Positions 9,383 through 15,730 of a stretch of 34,238 bases of DNA are shown piece by piece. The translations under genes were made by a program, and so were the position numbers. Under the pieces are notes generated by a model. The model was not told the DNA's origin, did no database searches, and saw only the letters and a list, made by a program, of their open reading frames with translations. How positions within the stretch are numbered: the first letter of the stretch is position 1; the number at the start of each line of letters is the position of its first letter. This DNA comes from Phycisphaeraceae bacterium (GTDB lineage: Bacteria; Planctomycetota; Phycisphaerae; Phycisphaerales; UBA1924): NCBI GenBank assembly GCA_021604785.1, contig BQJQ01000008.1, positions 1 to 34,238 on the forward strand, read 5' to 3'.

Positions 9383-9412
9383 TACACTCTCGTTTGGCCC
9401 TTGGTAAGGAGG
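9383..9412 (+). promoter_or_regulatory. Putative fabI -10 (TACACT) and Shine-Dalgarno (AAGGAGG)
   Basis: TACACT at 9383-9388 precedes a leader of roughly 24 nt. A perfect AAGGAGG at 9406-9412 lies 6 nt before the GTG at 9419. This fixes the fabI start at 9419 rather than the in-frame TTG at 9401, and gives a contrast to the leaderless-looking neighbours. Confidence 0.6.
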
Positions 9413-9418
9413 CTCCGC

Positions 9419-10201
9419 GTGCCCGAAAAGCTGCTCGAAGGCAAGGTTGCTCTGATCGTCGGCGTCGCGAACGACCGCTCGTACGCGTGGCACATCGCTA
9501 AGGGGCTCACCGACCACGGGGCGACGTGCGCCTACGCCCACATCCCGGGCGAGAAGAACGAGCGGCGGACGCGAAAGGCCGCCGAGAAGGTGACCACCGA
9601 CCCGTGGCTGTTCCCGTGCGACGCGGGGTCGGACGAGGACCTCGACAAGCTCTTCGGCGCGTACCGCGAGAAGTTCGACAAGATGGACATCCTGGTGCAC
9701 TCGATCGCGTACGCCGAGCGGGAGTACCTGCAGCCGGGGATGTTCGCGGGGACGCCGCGCCAGGCTTTTCTGCAGGCGATCGACATCTCGGCGTACACAC
9801 TCGCGGCGATGGCCGACCGGGCCAAGCCCATGATGCCCGCGGGCGGGTCGATCATGTGCATGAGCTACTACGGAGCCGAGAAAGTGGTGCCGGGGTACAA
9901 CGTGATGGGTGTCGCGAAATCGGCGCTCGAATCGACGGCCCGGTACCTCGCCGCCGAGCTCGGCGAGCACGGCATCCGCGTGAACACGATCTCGGGCGGG
10001 TATCTCAAGACGCTGGCGTCGTCGGCGGTCGGGGGGACCGACGCGTTCGACGAGCACGCCAAGACACGCTCGCCGCTGCGCCGTGGCGTGGAGGGTGCGG
10101 ACGTTGGCGGAACCGCCGTCTACCTCGCGTCGGACCTTGCGGCGGGCGTGACCGGCGAGACGATCTACGTGGACTGCGGCGTGAACACGATCGGGATCTG
10201 A
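9419..10201 (+). CDS. fabI: Enoyl-[acyl-carrier-protein] reductase (NADH)
   Basis: The 260-residue SDR enzyme performs the last step of each fatty acid elongation cycle, reducing enoyl-ACP. The dinucleotide site is LIVGVANDRSYAWHIA. The catalytic set is Tyr150, Tyr160 and Lys167 in SYYGAEKVVPGYNVMGVAK, aligning with E. coli Tyr146, Tyr156 and Lys163. The HSIAYAEREYLQ and YVDCGVNTIG blocks are typical. The loop that is normally ISAGPIRTLA reads ISGGYLKTLA (191-200), so the usual Pro next to the NAD/acyl site is Tyr. The start is set by AAGGAGG 6 nt upstream of GTG. It is divergent from nadC. Confidence 0.95.
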   Translation: MPEKLLEGKVALIVGVANDRSYAWHIAKGLTDHGATCAYAHIPGEKNERRTRKAAEKVTTDPWLFPCDAGSDEDLDKLFGAYREKFDKMDILVHSIAYAEREYLQPGMFAGTPRQAFLQAIDISAYTLAAMADRAKPMMPAGGSIMCMSYYGAEKVVPGYNVMGVAKSALESTARYLAAELGEHGIRVNTISGGYLKTLASSAVGGTDAFDEHAKTRSPLRRGVEGADVGGTAVYLASDLAAGVTGETIYVDCGVNTIGI

Positions 10202-10249: not shown

Positions 10250-10335
10250 GCGGTTGATCACACAACATGTGGGGGATGAGACGGCCGGTAACCGCTATTT
10301 GTCCTGTATCGTGGAGCGGCTGCCGGACGGAACCC

Positions 10336-10664: not shown

Positions 10665-11513
10665 TTACTTGCCCTTGAAGAACCTCGTGACGGCGTGCAT
10701 GGTGACGCCGCGCCCCATGGCGCCGATCGACTCGGTCAGCGGGACGCCCTTGGGGCAGACCTTGACGCAGTTCTGGGCGTTGCCGCAGTCGGCGACGCCG
10801 CCGGGGCCCATGAGTTCGTCGAGGCGTTCGGGGGCGAGGTTCTTGCCGGTGCCGTGGAGGTTGAAGAGACGGGCCTGGGCAATGGCATGCGCACCGATGA
10901 AGGCCGAGTCCCACGCGTCCTCGTCGCCCTCAAGGAGGAACTGGGGGCAAGCCTCGAGGCAGCACCCGCAGCTCATGCACTCGGAGATCGCGTAGCGTGT
11001 GGACTGGGTCGCCTGGTCTTCTTTGGGGCCCGGGCCGAGGGCGGCGGTCGAGTCGATCGGCACCCACCCGCGGACGCGCTTCAGGCTGTTGAACAGGCGG
11101 GCGCGGTCCACCCAGAGGTCACGGATGACCGGGAACTTGCTCATGGGCTCGAGGGTGATCTCATCGCCCTCCTCGGGCGCGTATTCATCAATGAGGCACG
11201 AGCAGGACTGGCGGACGGTGCCGTTGATGACCATGGTGCAGGCGCCGCAGACCTCCTCGAGGCAGCCCGAGTCCCAGACGACCGGCGTGGTCTCCTTGCC
11301 GTCCGCGGTGACGGGGTTCGCCGCGATCTTCTGCAGGCACGAGATCACGTTCTCGTTGGGCTCGACGGGGATCTTGAACGACTCGAACCACCCGAGCTTG
11401 CCCGGGCCCTCGCACCGGCGGACTGTCATCACGATCGTGCGCCCGGGGACGGCCTTGGCCCGGTTCGCCTGGCGCCATGCGAGCGTCGATTGGTGGGCCT
11501 GGGGAAGGGACAT
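10665..11513 (-). CDS. sdhB: Succinate dehydrogenase/fumarate reductase iron-sulfur subunit
   Basis: The 282-residue electron-transfer subunit passes electrons from SdhA to the quinone site. The [2Fe-2S] site is Cys84, Cys89, Cys92 and Cys104 (CLEEVCGACTMVINGTVRQSC). The [4Fe-4S] motif is CMSCGCCLEACP (from Cys179). The [3Fe-4S] motif is CGNAQNCVKVCPKGVP. All cluster ligands appear present. It is a little longer than the usual ~240-260 residues. The ATG has TTGGAG upstream. It is the last gene of the sdhC-sdhA-methyltransferase-sdhB unit, 39 bp after the methyltransferase. Confidence 0.97.
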   Translation of the reverse strand: MSLPQAHQSTLAWRQANRAKAVPGRTIVMTVRRCEGPGKLGWFESFKIPVEPNENVISCLQKIAANPVTADGKETTPVVWDSGCLEEVCGACTMVINGTVRQSCSCLIDEYAPEEGDEITLEPMSKFPVIRDLWVDRARLFNSLKRVRGWVPIDSTAALGPGPKEDQATQSTRYAISECMSCGCCLEACPQFLLEGDEDAWDSAFIGAHAIAQARLFNLHGTGKNLAPERLDELMGPGGVADCGNAQNCVKVCPKGVPLTESIGAMGRGVTMHAVTRFFKGK

Positions 11514-11552
11514 CGTGCGGTCTCCAATCCGAACGGGCGCGGGCCCGCGTGT

Positions 11553-12368
11553 TCATGCTACGGCGGCGTCGTCTGCGTGCGTAGTTCCGGTGCCGGCGCT
11601 CTGCCACTCGCCTTCTTTCTGGAGGCGGAAGACGATCATCTGGTGCAAGCCGCGGACCTTGGTGCCGAAGAGACGGGCGTAGAGGCGCGGGGCGAAGCGC
11701 ATCGCGGACGGGAAGTACTGCTGCCACTGGGTGCAGGGCATGTACCAGACGTCGAGCGCTGAATACCCGAGCCCGCGGGCGGCCTTGGCGATCCGCCCGG
11801 CGCTGCCCAGGCGGTAGTACGCGGGGTAGGCGTTGACCTTGGCGACGTCGCTGTCGGACCCGTCGTTGGAGAACCGGTCCTTGAGGCCGATGAGCTCGAT
11901 GGAGCGCGAGACCATGGCGAAGGGGTGCCACCAGTTGGGGGTGTAGCCCATGACGACGCCGCCGGGCTTGAGCGTCTTGTGGATCGCGGCGAGGTGGGCG
12001 CGCGGGTCGGCGACGTGCTCGAAGACAAAGCAAGAGATCGCGGCGTCGTACTCGGACTCGGGGATCTCCCCGTTCGCGACGAGCTCCTCGACCCCTCCCT
12101 TCCACCGGCGCGTCAGGAGGGGGTGCTTGAAGACGTCGTCGGACGGGTCGAGCCCATCCCAGGTCCCGATGCGCGACAGCGCCGCCCGGATGACGGTGCC
12201 CTCGGACGACGCGGGCTCGTCGGCGCACCCGACATCGAGCACACGCCCAATGACGCGGTCGTCCTCGTTCATCATGTCCGCGAAGGGGGCCATCCACGAG
12301 TCGCGGTGTTCGTCGAGCCAGGCGAAGTTGCGGCCTTGGGCGTCGGGGCTGTGAAGGGTCACACGCAT
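11553..12368 (-). CDS. SAM-dependent class I methyltransferase inside the sdh operon
   Basis: The 271-residue soluble protein has a Rossmann-type methyltransferase core. Motif I is RVLDVGCADEPAS (42-54), the acidic/post-I region is WDGLDPSDDV, motif IV is YDAAISCFVFEHVADP and motif V/VI is LKPGGVVMGYTPNWWHP. The pattern fits the Methyltransf_11/UbiE-like superfamily. A C-terminal region rich in aromatic residues (YSALDVWYMPCTQWQQYFP) may shape the acceptor site. It starts 10 bp after the sdhA stop with GAGGGACG upstream, so it is very probably co-transcribed with sdhCAB. The substrate is unknown; a quinone or a subunit of the complex are guesses from context only. Confidence 0.85.
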   Translation of the reverse strand: MRVTLHSPDAQGRNFAWLDEHRDSWMAPFADMMNEDDRVIGRVLDVGCADEPASSEGTVIRAALSRIGTWDGLDPSDDVFKHPLLTRRWKGGVEELVANGEIPESEYDAAISCFVFEHVADPRAHLAAIHKTLKPGGVVMGYTPNWWHPFAMVSRSIELIGLKDRFSNDGSDSDVAKVNAYPAYYRLGSAGRIAKAARGLGYSALDVWYMPCTQWQQYFPSAMRFAPRLYARLFGTKVRGLHQMIVFRLQKEGEWQSAGTGTTHADDAAVA

Positions 12369-12378
12369 CGGACGTCCC

Positions 12379-14325
12379 TCATGACCCGACCGGCTGGGCG
12401 GTCTTCTTCGCCGGCTCGGGCGCTGTCTTGCCGTAGGTCCGCGGGCGGGGCTTGACCAAGGGGGCCCGCACGGGCTCGAAGGTCACGTCGGCCTTGCCGG
12501 TCGCGGGGTTGAACCGCGAGACCGAGGTCTTCCAGAACCTGGCGTCGTCGCGGTCCGGGAAGTCGGTGCGGTAGTGGCTGCCGCGGGACTCCTGGCGGAG
12601 GAGCCCGGCTCTGGCGATCGCCTCGGCGAGGATGAGCATGTCGCCGGTCGCGCGGGTGAAGCTGAGCGACTGGTTCGTCCACGTCGCGGTGTCCGAGAGC
12701 TTGACCCGCGAGTACCGCTCGCTCAGCTCGTCGAGCTTGGCGAGGCACTTCTCGAGGCGCGGGCCGGTCTTGACGACGGTGGACGCGGCGGTCATCTCCA
12801 CGCCCATCTCGCGGGCGATGACGTAGGCGTTCTCGCCCGAGTGGTTGCCGGCGGTCGCGATGAACGCTTCGTGCTTGTCCTGCTCGCGGTCGGAGGCGGC
12901 GTCGTACACCGATTGGGGCACGTCGGACGCCGGGCGGTCTGTGTGCTGGACGGCGTTGGCGACGGAGAGCCCGTTGAAAAGCCCGTCGAAGATGCAGCTG
13001 AGCAGGGCGTTGGCGCCCAGGCGTGTCGCGCCGTGGTACGCGAAGTTGACCTCGCCGAAGGCGTACAGGCCCTCGATGTTGGTCATCATGTTGTTGGGTG
13101 CGCCGTGCGTCATGCCGATGCCCGCGGTCGGGGCGACGGGGATCGCGTTGCCCGGCTTGTGCTCGGGGGCGGGCGCGTCGGGGGTGTAGCTGCCCTCGGT
13201 GTAGGTGGTCCACATGCCGCCCATGGTGTAGTGGACGGCGGGGAAGATCTTCATCGGGGTGTGGCGCGGGTCCTCGCCGGCGAACTTCTCGTAGATCTCC
13301 AGGATCCCGCCGAGCTTGTTCGTGAGGTAGTCCGGGTCCATGTGGGAGAGGTCGAGGTAGACCATGTTCCCGCCGCCGATGCCCATGTGGTCGTTGACGC
13401 AGACGTCGAAGATCTCGCGCGTCGCGATATCGCGCGGCACGAGATTGCCGTAGTCGGGGTAGCGCTCTTCGAGGAAGTACCAGCGTTCGCCCTCGGGGAT
13501 GTCCGCGGGCTTGCGTGCGTCGGCCTTGTCCTTGGGCACCCAGACGCGGCCGCCCTCGCCGCGGGCGGACTCGGACATCAGGCGGCACTTGTCGGCGCCT
13601 GGGATCGCGGTCGGGTGGACCTGGATCATCTCGGCGTTGCCGTACCACGCGCCGTGCTGGTAGCAGCGGCTCGCGGCGCCGCCGGTGCAGATGACCGAGT
13701 TGGTGCTCTGCCCGAAGACAAGCCCGTTGCCGCCGGTCGCCATGACGACGGCGTCCGCCCGGAACGAGCGGATCTGCATCGTCCGCATGTCCTGGGCGAC
13801 GATGCCGACGCATTTTCCGTTGTCGTCGAGGACGGGGGCGAGGAACTCCCAGAACTCGTACTTGGTCACCTTGCCCTCGGACTCGAACCGGCGGGTCTGC
13901 TCGTCGAGCGCGTAGAGGAGCTGCTGGCCCGTTGTCGCGCCGGCGAAGTGGGTGCGTTTGAACAGCGACCCGCCGAAGAGCCGCAGGTCGCGGAAGCCCT
14001 CAGCCGTGCGGTTGAAGGGGACGCCCATCCGGTCGAGCAGGTCGATGACCTTGGGGGCCCAGGCGGTCATCTCGAGGACGGGGCCCTGGTCGGCGAGAAA
14101 GTCCCCGCCGTAGAGGGTTTCGTCGAAGTGCTGGTACTCGGAGTACCCCTGCTGGCGGGCGACTTCGTTGCAGGCGTTGATCCCGCCCTGGGCGCACACG
14201 GAGTGCGAGCGTTTGACGGGGACCATGGAGAACAGGTCCACGGCGATGCCCGCCTCGGCGACACGGACGGAGGCGGCCAGCCCGGCCAGCCCGCCGCCCA
14301 CCACGATCACGCGTTGATCACTCAT
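12379..14325 (-). CDS. sdhA: Succinate dehydrogenase/fumarate reductase flavoprotein subunit
   Basis: The 648-residue protein oxidises succinate to fumarate with FAD. The FAD dinucleotide motif is VIVVGGGLAGLAA (7-19). The covalent FAD attachment histidine is His41 in RSHSVCAQGGINA. The substrate/active-site blocks are QVHPTAIPG and SESARGEGGRVWV. Further FAD contacts include ATGGNGLVFG and the YAFGEVNFAYHGATRLGANALLSC stretch. It belongs to the B-type branch (B. subtilis/Wolinella) paired with a single cytochrome b subunit. The ATG overlaps the sdhC stop (ATGA). The downstream methyltransferase separates it from sdhB. Confidence 0.97.
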   Translation of the reverse strand: MSDQRVIVVGGGLAGLAASVRVAEAGIAVDLFSMVPVKRSHSVCAQGGINACNEVARQQGYSEYQHFDETLYGGDFLADQGPVLEMTAWAPKVIDLLDRMGVPFNRTAEGFRDLRLFGGSLFKRTHFAGATTGQQLLYALDEQTRRFESEGKVTKYEFWEFLAPVLDDNGKCVGIVAQDMRTMQIRSFRADAVVMATGGNGLVFGQSTNSVICTGGAASRCYQHGAWYGNAEMIQVHPTAIPGADKCRLMSESARGEGGRVWVPKDKADARKPADIPEGERWYFLEERYPDYGNLVPRDIATREIFDVCVNDHMGIGGGNMVYLDLSHMDPDYLTNKLGGILEIYEKFAGEDPRHTPMKIFPAVHYTMGGMWTTYTEGSYTPDAPAPEHKPGNAIPVAPTAGIGMTHGAPNNMMTNIEGLYAFGEVNFAYHGATRLGANALLSCIFDGLFNGLSVANAVQHTDRPASDVPQSVYDAASDREQDKHEAFIATAGNHSGENAYVIAREMGVEMTAASTVVKTGPRLEKCLAKLDELSERYSRVKLSDTATWTNQSLSFTRATGDMLILAEAIARAGLLRQESRGSHYRTDFPDRDDARFWKTSVSRFNPATGKADVTFEPVRAPLVKPRPRTYGKTAPEPAKKTAQPVGS

Positions 14326-15191
14326 CCCTCACCCCCGGCGTTCGCGTGTTCGTCTGCCGGCGGGCGCCCCTCGAGCTTGTTCTCGATCCGCTGCAACTCT
14401 TCGGGGCCGTGCTCGTGGAGGATCATCTCAGCCTCGGTCGCCCGGGCCTCCTGCGGATCGACCATGAACGCCGCGCCGAGCGATGACCATGCCGCGAGCA
14501 TCAGGCCCGCGCCGAGCCCGAAGCAGACCAGGCCCCACCGCTTCTGGGCGGGCACGGAGACCGTCAGCCCCCACGTGATCGCCGCGGTCCAGAGCCCGTT
14601 GGCGAAGTGGAAGACGAGCAGTGTGATCCCGGCGAAGTAGAGCAACGCCACGGCGACGCCCAGCGCCGTCCACCCCTCGGGCGAGCCCTGGATCGCCGCT
14701 GCCAGCGTCGAGGCGCTGAAGTGGTGGCTCCACTGCGTCCCGCCCGGGACGAGCCACGTCCACCCCCAGCGGAGCGTCGCGACGTGGTAGAAGATGAACG
14801 CGATGCCGAGGTACCCGCTGATCCGCTGGAGCGAATACCGCCAGTTGTCCATATGCGGGTAGTGGGCGGTGTTGCCCTTGCCCGTGGTCGCGTAGTAGAC
14901 GCCCAGGATGGCGTGGAACGCGATCGAGACCCAGAGCGTCACCTCGATCAGCAGCAGGTGCGGCACCTGTTCGTTGATGTAGCTGACCTCCTCCTGGAAG
15001 TACTTGACCCCGCCCTGGGCGATGGACATGCCCTCGCCCTCGCCACGCAGGGCGAACCGCCCCCACGCCAGCGAGCTGTTGGTGGTCAGGTGCGCGATCA
15101 GGAAGACCCCGATCGGGACGATGCCCGAGAGGGAGTGCAGCCGACGCAGCAGGAAGGAATGTCGCTCGAAGAAGCTCTGTCGATCGCTCAC
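14322..15191 (-). CDS. sdhC: Succinate dehydrogenase cytochrome b subunit (type B, single anchor)
   Basis: I choose GTG 15191 (289 residues, MSDRQSFF...), which puts about 15 residues before the conserved RRLHSLSGIVPIG. An upstream in-frame GTG at 15215 is an alternative. Five hydrophobic segments are visible, with histidines in RRLHSLSG, FLIAHLTTN, IAFHAILG, FIFYHVATLRWG and VFHFANGLW, expected to hold two hemes b. There is no separate sdhD, consistent with type B complexes that reduce menaquinone. The C-terminus has a hydrophilic extension after about 250. TAGACT at 15231-15236 is a candidate promoter. Confidence 0.92.
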   Translation of the reverse strand: MSDRQSFFERHSFLLRRLHSLSGIVPIGVFLIAHLTTNSSLAWGRFALRGEGEGMSIAQGGVKYFQEEVSYINEQVPHLLLIEVTLWVSIAFHAILGVYYATTGKGNTAHYPHMDNWRYSLQRISGYLGIAFIFYHVATLRWGWTWLVPGGTQWSHHFSASTLAAAIQGSPEGWTALGVAVALLYFAGITLLVFHFANGLWTAAITWGLTVSVPAQKRWGLVCFGLGAGLMLAAWSSLGAAFMVDPQEARATEAEMILHEHGPEELQRIENKLEGRPPADEHANAGGEG

Positions 15192-15230
15192 GGTTTTCGC
15201 CCCAGCAAGGCCCACGGACCCTGTTTCGGC

Positions 15231-15268: not shown

Positions 15269-15730
15269 TTACATGCCGGGGGGCCCGCCGCCCAGGTCGA
15301 TCGCCCCGCCGCCCGAGGCGTCGAGCTTGCCCTCGGCCTTGGCCTTCTCGACGGCTTTGACGATCTCGGCGAACTGGAGGCGCAGCTCGTGCACCGTGCC
15401 GTCGAGCATTGACTTCTCGTCGTCGCTCAGGTTGCCCTTGGTCTTGTCCTGCATGAGCCCGAGCATGTCGATGTGGAGCTTGGCGAGGTCCAGTGCGATC
15501 ATCGCCTTGCCCGTCTGCGGGTCGGGGAAGGCCCCGAGGTACATCAGGGCCTGGGTCGCGAGCATTTTGATCAGGTCGTCGAAGGTGAGCTTCTCGGGGA
15601 GCCCGCCCGGGCCCGCGCCGGGGCCCTCGGCCTTCGCCTGGGCGTCCTGGGCGGCGAGTTTCTCCTTCTCGGCCTGTGCTTGAGACTTCCAGTCGTCATC
15701 GACGATAATCTTCGGGGTATCTTCGGGCAT
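15269..15730 (-). CDS. DUF1844 family protein
   Basis: The 153-residue protein has an acidic, Lys/Ala-rich N-terminus (PKIIVDDDWKSQAQAEKEK), a Gly/Pro linker around 35-45, and then a helical core that matches DUF1844. That core includes FDDLIKMLATQALMYLGAFPDP, ALDLAKLHIDMLGLMQDKTKGNL and LHELRLQF-type helices. The C-terminus is Gly-rich, ending GGGPPGM. No enzyme motif or signal peptide is present; the family function is unknown. The ATG has AAGGAAC upstream and TAGGAT further up. It lies just upstream of sdhC on the same strand, but a candidate sdh promoter sits between them. Confidence 0.88.
   Translation of the reverse strand: MPEDTPKIIVDDDWKSQAQAEKEKLAAQDAQAKAEGPGAGPGGLPEKLTFDDLIKMLATQALMYLGAFPDPQTGKAMIALDLAKLHIDMLGLMQDKTKGNLSDDEKSMLDGTVHELRLQFAEIVKAVEKAKAEGKLDASGGGAIDLGGGPPGM

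Follow-up and report, generated by a model that had tools for sequence, protein, structure and literature searches.

A methyltransferase gene between sdhA and sdhB in a Phycisphaeraceae bacterium, and other single genes at the same junction

The sdh locus and its additional gene

We analyzed a window of 34,238 nucleotides from a Phycisphaeraceae bacterium (contig BQJQ01000008.1 of assembly GCA_021604785.1), whose minus strand carries the order DUF1844–sdhC–sdhA–methyltransferase–sdhB (Table 1). The sdhC–sdhA–sdhB order is that of the B. subtilis-type operon, with SdhA and SdhB both above their NCBIfam cut-offs, but the window differs in having an extra gene between sdhA and sdhB. An earlier note on this DNA had placed a methyltransferase there with gaps of 10 and 39 bp and a ribosome binding site of its own. 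The ORF coordinates confirm the gaps, and a Shine-Dalgarno-like TGAGGGA at the sdhA stop puts GAGG 8 nt ahead of the methyltransferase start. SdhC scored below the TIGR02046 cut-off and matched no Pfam family, although its position is as expected.

The methyltransferase ORF is open throughout from its ATG start. It is coding, to judge by homologues at 35%–44% identity and a GC3 of 0.92 that resembles those of sdhC (0.92), sdhA (0.95), and sdhB (0.93); a foreign origin on compositional grounds was not supported, as the GC content (0.68) and GC3 match the sdh genes. Between positions 10300 and 15900, scans that are weak in DNA of 70% GC found no terminator-like sites (2.5 expected from shuffles) and a single promoter-like site, at 15680 on the opposite strand. 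From the spacing, we infer that the methyltransferase gene is co-transcribed with the sdh operon and translationally coupled to sdhA.

Table 1. Features of the sdh locus in the window and of nucleotidyltransferase (NTase) genes at comparable positions in other genomes
Feature	Position	Strand	Basis or remark
Short-chain reductase (read as FabI)	9401..10201	+	Syntenic marker, opposite flank of the sdh block
sdhB, succinate dehydrogenase iron-sulfur subunit	10665..11513	-	NF006391, 360 bits, cut-off 244
Methyltransferase–sdhB junction, 39 bp	11514..11552	-	GGAG 8 nt before the sdhB ATG
Class I SAM-dependent methyltransferase, 271 aa, planctomycete clade	11553..12368	-	ORF, Pfam, alignment, model
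sdhA–methyltransferase junction, 10 bp	12369..12378	-	sdhA stop TGA runs into Shine-Dalgarno-like GAGGGA of the methyltransferase
sdhA, succinate dehydrogenase flavoprotein, B. subtilis type	12379..14325	-	NF006392, 895 bits, cut-off 855
sdhC, cytochrome b558-type subunit, overlapping the sdhA start	14322..15215	-	TIGR02046, 55.4 bits, cut-off 96; operon position
DUF1844 gene, upstream of sdhC	15269..15730	-	Pfam; syntenic marker
NTase between sdhA and sdhB, 20 family genomes	L073-L086, L088-L092, L321
NTase genes directly after gyrB-type genes	L348:2310-5499 and L350:328-3427

The product exceeds the Pfam gathering scores of Methyltransf_23 (39.4 bits; threshold 27), Methyltransf_12 (36.9; 30), and Methyltransf_11 (32.5; 21.2), and stays below that of Methyltransf_25 (24.2; 27). 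No NCBIfam equivalog fits. The best, UbiG (TIGR01983), scored 19.9 bits where the cut-off is 102.95 and aligned over the generic SAM core only (residues 42–140), and there is a weak match to MpqE, a plastoquinone enzyme (12.1 bits; cut-off 335). UbiE/MenG gave no NCBIfam match up to E 0.1 and no match to the Pfam family Ubie_methyltran up to E 0.001. The view in the earlier note that this is not a standard UbiE/MenG thus holds, and the aromatic-rich C-terminus that it described is present (DVWYMPCTQWQQYFP...). Among solved structures, the methyltransferase profile best matched quinone O-methyltransferases of the UbiG type and assorted enzymes, these matches covering the SAM domain, and PADLOC returned only a weak SAM-domain match (mad2, E 0.005). 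The predicted structure (pLDDT 79) has a class I fold without a specific nearest relative, and a fold search with it was uninformative (831 matches at E ≤ 0.001, the 50 listed being assorted class I methyltransferases). Neither the solved-structure matches nor the non-specific fold matches thus give a direct pointer to a sugar substrate.

An alignment of nine members has 38 invariant columns, including the SAM-site motif; LDVGC and DGxDP are invariant in all nine, and the C-terminal half conserves N-x-[YI]-P-x-YY and W-x4-P. The enzyme and its relatives are best read as a small, fast-diverging planctomycete clade.

Distribution, neighborhoods, and origin of the methyltransferase

At a threshold of E ≤ 1e-40, the methyltransferase was found in nine of 163 genomes of the family, the window's included (next match 3e-18). 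An order-wide sample of 400 genomes yielded 12 carriers at E ≤ 1e-79 (next match 4e-36), namely the same nine and G664, G694, and G755, which belong to a second family of the order. Across the phylum, 392 sampled genomes yielded the window's genome plus a single weak match at E ≤ 1e-15 and nothing further; up to six first-look candidates per genome were scored in these two samples, so that absences from them should not be read as exhaustive. A scan of genome contigs added at least two members, L113 (Pirellulaceae) and L114 (Planctomycetota isolate B23T1B5), and L112 and G100 were counted once. G694, G755, and L114 are near-identical in the methyltransferase and are therefore treated as one lineage. 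Two further methyltransferases were set apart: in G037, the gene downstream of sdhB (L016, L105) encodes a distinct enzyme (40% over 52 aa, E 4e-5) and was not counted, and the one between sdhA and sdhB in G133 is another methyltransferase (31% over 105 aa), counted apart.

The order sdhA–methyltransferase–sdhB occurs in three of the 137 family genomes that carry sdhA and sdhB together on a single contig and strand (window included), and the sdhA–methyltransferase adjacency recurs in the second family. Since the order is found in other genera, it is not unique to this genome; such uniqueness would have counted against the proposal of the earlier note. The gap holds no such gene in the other 134, and 133 of the 137 lack it anywhere at E ≤ 1e-40, G041 carrying it elsewhere. 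Conversely, five of the nine family carriers (G005, G011, G099, G100, and G169; genomes 87%–96% complete) had neither an SdhA match at E ≤ 1e-80 nor an SdhB match at E ≤ 1e-40. They hold another SdhA/FrdA-type flavoprotein (486–501 bits, under the family cut-off of 567), which in G005 and G011 adjoins a distant SdhB-like match. Carriers lacking sdhAB are not alone in having this type of flavoprotein, as G124 combines sdhCAB with one of its own (513 bits).

Six of the 14 clade members, representing four lineages, lie beside sdhA; one lies at an sdh locus without sdhCAB, four beside glycan-type genes, and three elsewhere. All six that adjoin sdhA share its strand. The next gene is sdhB in G000, G124, and G043; three opposite-strand genes precede sdhB in G694 and two in L114, and no sdhB match was found on the 9 kb read for G755. 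The spacing behind sdhA is 10 bp in the window, an ATGA overlap in G124, 7 bp in G043, and about 20–50 bp in G694, G755, and L114, depending on the start chosen. In G005, the methyltransferase follows the DUF1844 gene within a NadC–FabI–PPI block, with no sdh gene matched there. (NadC, FabI, PPI, BirA, HIT, and MutL are labels that we assume from reading, not from family search.) A DUF1844 gene is also near the methyltransferase in G124, G043, G694, and G005. The glycan-type neighbors are a group 1 glycosyltransferase in G041; GT2, GT4, a hexapeptide transferase, and a Wzy_C match below cut-off in L113; a convergent polysaccharide flippase in G664; and, as a weaker case, an epimerase on the other strand in G169. 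In G011, G099, and G100, no glycan genes lie next to the methyltransferase and the neighbors are unrelated.

The larger insertions of G694 and L114, with all extra genes on the other strand, include a UbiA-family prenyltransferase (by Pfam for L114) and a membrane protein read as a glycosyltransferase, without a Pfam match. Both in L114 and in two families of the order, f2 and f4, we also observed sdhB adjoining a UbiA-family prenyltransferase and a large membrane protein that matched no Pfam family (L216, L217, L114:7149-9596, and L213:5425-7830), the UbiA assignment being by Pfam in L114, L216, and L217 and by reading in L213; in L114 and L213, both genes are between sdhA and sdhB. Within f2 and f4, sdhB can also occur without sdhA on the 8–9 kb read (L214-L218).

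Six of 14 members beside sdhA and one at a former sdh locus far exceed random placement, so some tie to sdhA is real, by descent or by function. We give slightly less than even odds to a single origin of the adjacency in an ancestor shared by the two families, followed by many losses, which would be compatible with any reading of function. Consistent with it, the gene family, orientation, and position are the same in G000, G124, G043, and the G694/G755/L114 lineage, and G005 retains a copy at a former sdh locus. Against it, a tree of SdhA plus SdhB (104 rows, of which five carry the methyltransferase) requires 20 losses after one origin, compared with a minimum of four changes; this was a quick tree without bootstrap, and its outgroup does not form one side of a branch. 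Its rows comprise 101 of the 137 family genomes (window included) and three from outside the family; 35 near-duplicate or truncated genomes, chosen by hand, and G176 were left out, and the NTase state of G007, G044, and G174, which the automatic slot test had missed, was set by hand beforehand.

AU tests also reject one clade of sdh-located methyltransferases (p 0.008 for all seven rows, 0.012 for the four of the window's family, and 0.039 for G000 with G043); the three tests were run after the first tree had been inspected, the first group being set by gene location and the other two chosen later. The rejection is compatible both with an original sdh location from which copies later departed and with repeated arrivals. 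The methyltransferase tree needs four changes of location, and by hand count both root states give four. Weaker homologues (E 1e-15 to 1e-36) formed a separate clade and served as outgroup only, one long-branch row (L207) being dropped.

Possible functions of the methyltransferase

Our preferred reading, to which we assign a probability of roughly 55%, is a class I methyltransferase that most likely O-methylates glycan sugars and rides the sdh operon as a coupled passenger, with chemistry independent of complex II. Translation would be coupled to that of sdhA, and the gene would borrow the expression of the operon, its product being made whenever the operon is expressed. The putative targets are sugars of a glycan, either in the envelope or extracellular, or else a precursor of such a glycan, and complex II would have no part in that chemistry. 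The sdhA/sdhB junction in this order would be a place that tolerates and repeatedly hosts single genes. Both the glycan substrate and the independence from complex II are probable, the former resting on the neighbors of four of the 14 members. The enzyme has the Pfam domain of the Methyltransf_11/23-type methyltransferases of polysaccharide clusters, and clade members adjoin glycosyltransferases and a flippase, but the copy in the window differs in that no glycan genes adjoin it.

The methyltransferase may instead be a passenger whose substrate is another small molecule or nothing of importance, kept or lost almost neutrally; this reading has perhaps half the weight of the glycan one. The high divergence, the sporadic presence, and the three members with unrelated neighbors all fit such a gene, but the 38 invariant columns, SAM-site motif included, do not; they speak for a function under selection.

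The earlier note had proposed co-expression with complex II, with quinone tailoring or Sdh subunit modification as possible roles, and neither role was supported. The methyltransferase is absent from most genomes with sdhAB and present in five carriers without this SdhAB; this complex II is thus neither its regular companion nor a requirement for it. Modification of a complex II subunit (for example, at Lys, Arg, or a carboxylate of SdhA or SdhB) or help in its assembly is accordingly improbable. Every sdh-located copy read is co-oriented with sdhA and closely spaced behind it, and the adjacency recurs in two families, both of which favor such a role. However, 134 of the 137 family genomes with sdhAB do without the enzyme there, more than half of the family carriers (five of nine) have no such SdhA or SdhB, and an unrelated nucleotidyltransferase occupies the same slot in other genomes. 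A same-genus genome (G001), with SdhB 81% and SdhA 85% identical to those of the window, has no insert between the two genes and no methyltransferase at E ≤ 1e-3.

Tailoring of the quinone used by complex II is the least probable of these alternatives. The enzyme has the class I Rossmann SAM core of the quinone methyltransferases UbiG, UbiE, and MenG, its best NCBIfam and solved-structure matches are UbiG or UbiG-type, and MpqE is among the weak matches, but it is 83 bits under the UbiG cut-off, the alignment leaves its C-terminal half unmatched, and its distribution is sporadic. The role is further countered by a separate UbiE/MenG-type gene elsewhere in the host genome (197 bits); the Pfam family of that gene matches in all 14 controls, so it indicates family and not substrate.

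The insertion is real and recurrent, but the comparison with relatives suggests that the methyltransferase travels as a passenger and is not a factor for complex II. This corrects a tempting argument from guilt by association, as location in the complex II operon does not commit an enzyme to the service of that complex.

Other occupants of the sdhA/sdhB junction

A literature search covering titles and abstract openings returned no description of a gene between bacterial sdhA and sdhB; in an excerpt of PMC11257911, the words "between sdhA and sdhB" refer to coupling, not to an insert. Among the 137 family genomes, the sdhA and sdhB matches are less than 250 bp apart in 110 and farther apart in 27. 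Three of the long gaps hold the methyltransferase, 20 a solo NTase, two NTase remnants only (G112, L224; G173, L223), and one the other methyltransferase of G133; the remaining one (G050) was rejected as an insert because it reflects a truncated SdhA match. Genes other than our methyltransferase thus fill the slot in 23 further family genomes, two of them with remnants. This suggests that unrelated single genes have repeatedly come to occupy the sdhA/sdhB junction as a slot. Such placement has been little studied: the genes, toxin-fold nucleotidyltransferases included, are found at a single, fixed junction within a core respiratory operon. With sister species that do and do not carry them, bacterial tolerance of interlopers in essential operons becomes testable.

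At E ≤ 1e-10, the NTase was found in 22 of the 163 family genomes; in 21 of them (the 20 above and G112), it lies between sdhA and sdhB and shares their strand. In the other, G142, the NTase (L349:41-571) lies directly before sdhB at a contig edge, with a partial sdhA on another contig. A weaker profile match (E 9e-14) lies elsewhere in G011, a genome without this SdhA and SdhB, and so counts against a location only at sdh. The copy of G084 (L280) is in two frames, reflecting either decay or an assembly error. The gene forms two subfamilies of sporadic presence in the family. Patristic distances of NTase and Sdh correlate (r 0.64 over 19 rows, with none of 2000 permutations as high), G170 being a clear exception; of 21 rows found, the NTase tree includes 19, as a length and motif filter removed two that were short.

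The predicted NTase structure (pLDDT 86) most closely resembles H. pylori JHP933-type and MenT1 chains, at modest similarity (E 1e-4 to 2e-3, TM 0.47–0.49), and the motif GG.A..LHG..R.T.D.D is invariant in 14 rows save for the R in one, features that liken it to AbiEii/MenT/JHP933 nucleotidyltransferases. Pfam at E ≤ 0.01 recovered AbiEii in four of 14 rows and DUF6036 in two; nothing was found in NCBIfam at E ≤ 0.01 or among PDB sequences at E ≤ 0.1. An excerpt of PMC3985639 describes AbiE systems as bicistronic. No arrangement of NTase and antitoxin genes in tandem was met in the slot gaps read, which, unlike AbiE type IV toxin–antitoxin loci, have no room for an antitoxin gene. The longest NTase-bearing gap, 964 bp in G174, holds an NTase ORF of 585 bp. 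The size of an AbiEi antitoxin gene is the yardstick for the space in these gaps, and the G174 gap therefore has no room for a second gene of that size.

Outside the family, an order sample of 301 genomes, with up to 11 first-look candidates scored in each so that absences are not exhaustive, contained four further genomes with the NTase at E ≤ 1e-12. The gene directly follows atpA in G694 (TTG 15 bp and ATG 21 bp away; region L347:1526-5507), lies 25 bp after gyrB in G591 and 33 bp after a gyrB-type gene in G573, and lies 82 bp after a gene read as a TPR protein in G677. We take the atpA and gyrB cases as a lead to a broader, tentative idea: in Phycisphaerales-type planctomycetes, spots 3' of essential operon genes (sdhA, atpA, and gyrB) may be docking sites for solo passengers. 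The main passenger would be the MenT/AbiEii-like NTase, almost only at sdhA/sdhB in the family, and the methyltransferase an alternative occupant. If true, docking inside an essential operon would shield a passenger from deletion and silencing, or allow it to act on the product of the operon.

Other genes were observed near these sites. In the atp operon of G694, atpH and atpA are separated by SIMPL and PDDEXK_3 genes; in G573 (L350), the gyrB-type gene is immediately preceded by a HepT-like gene.
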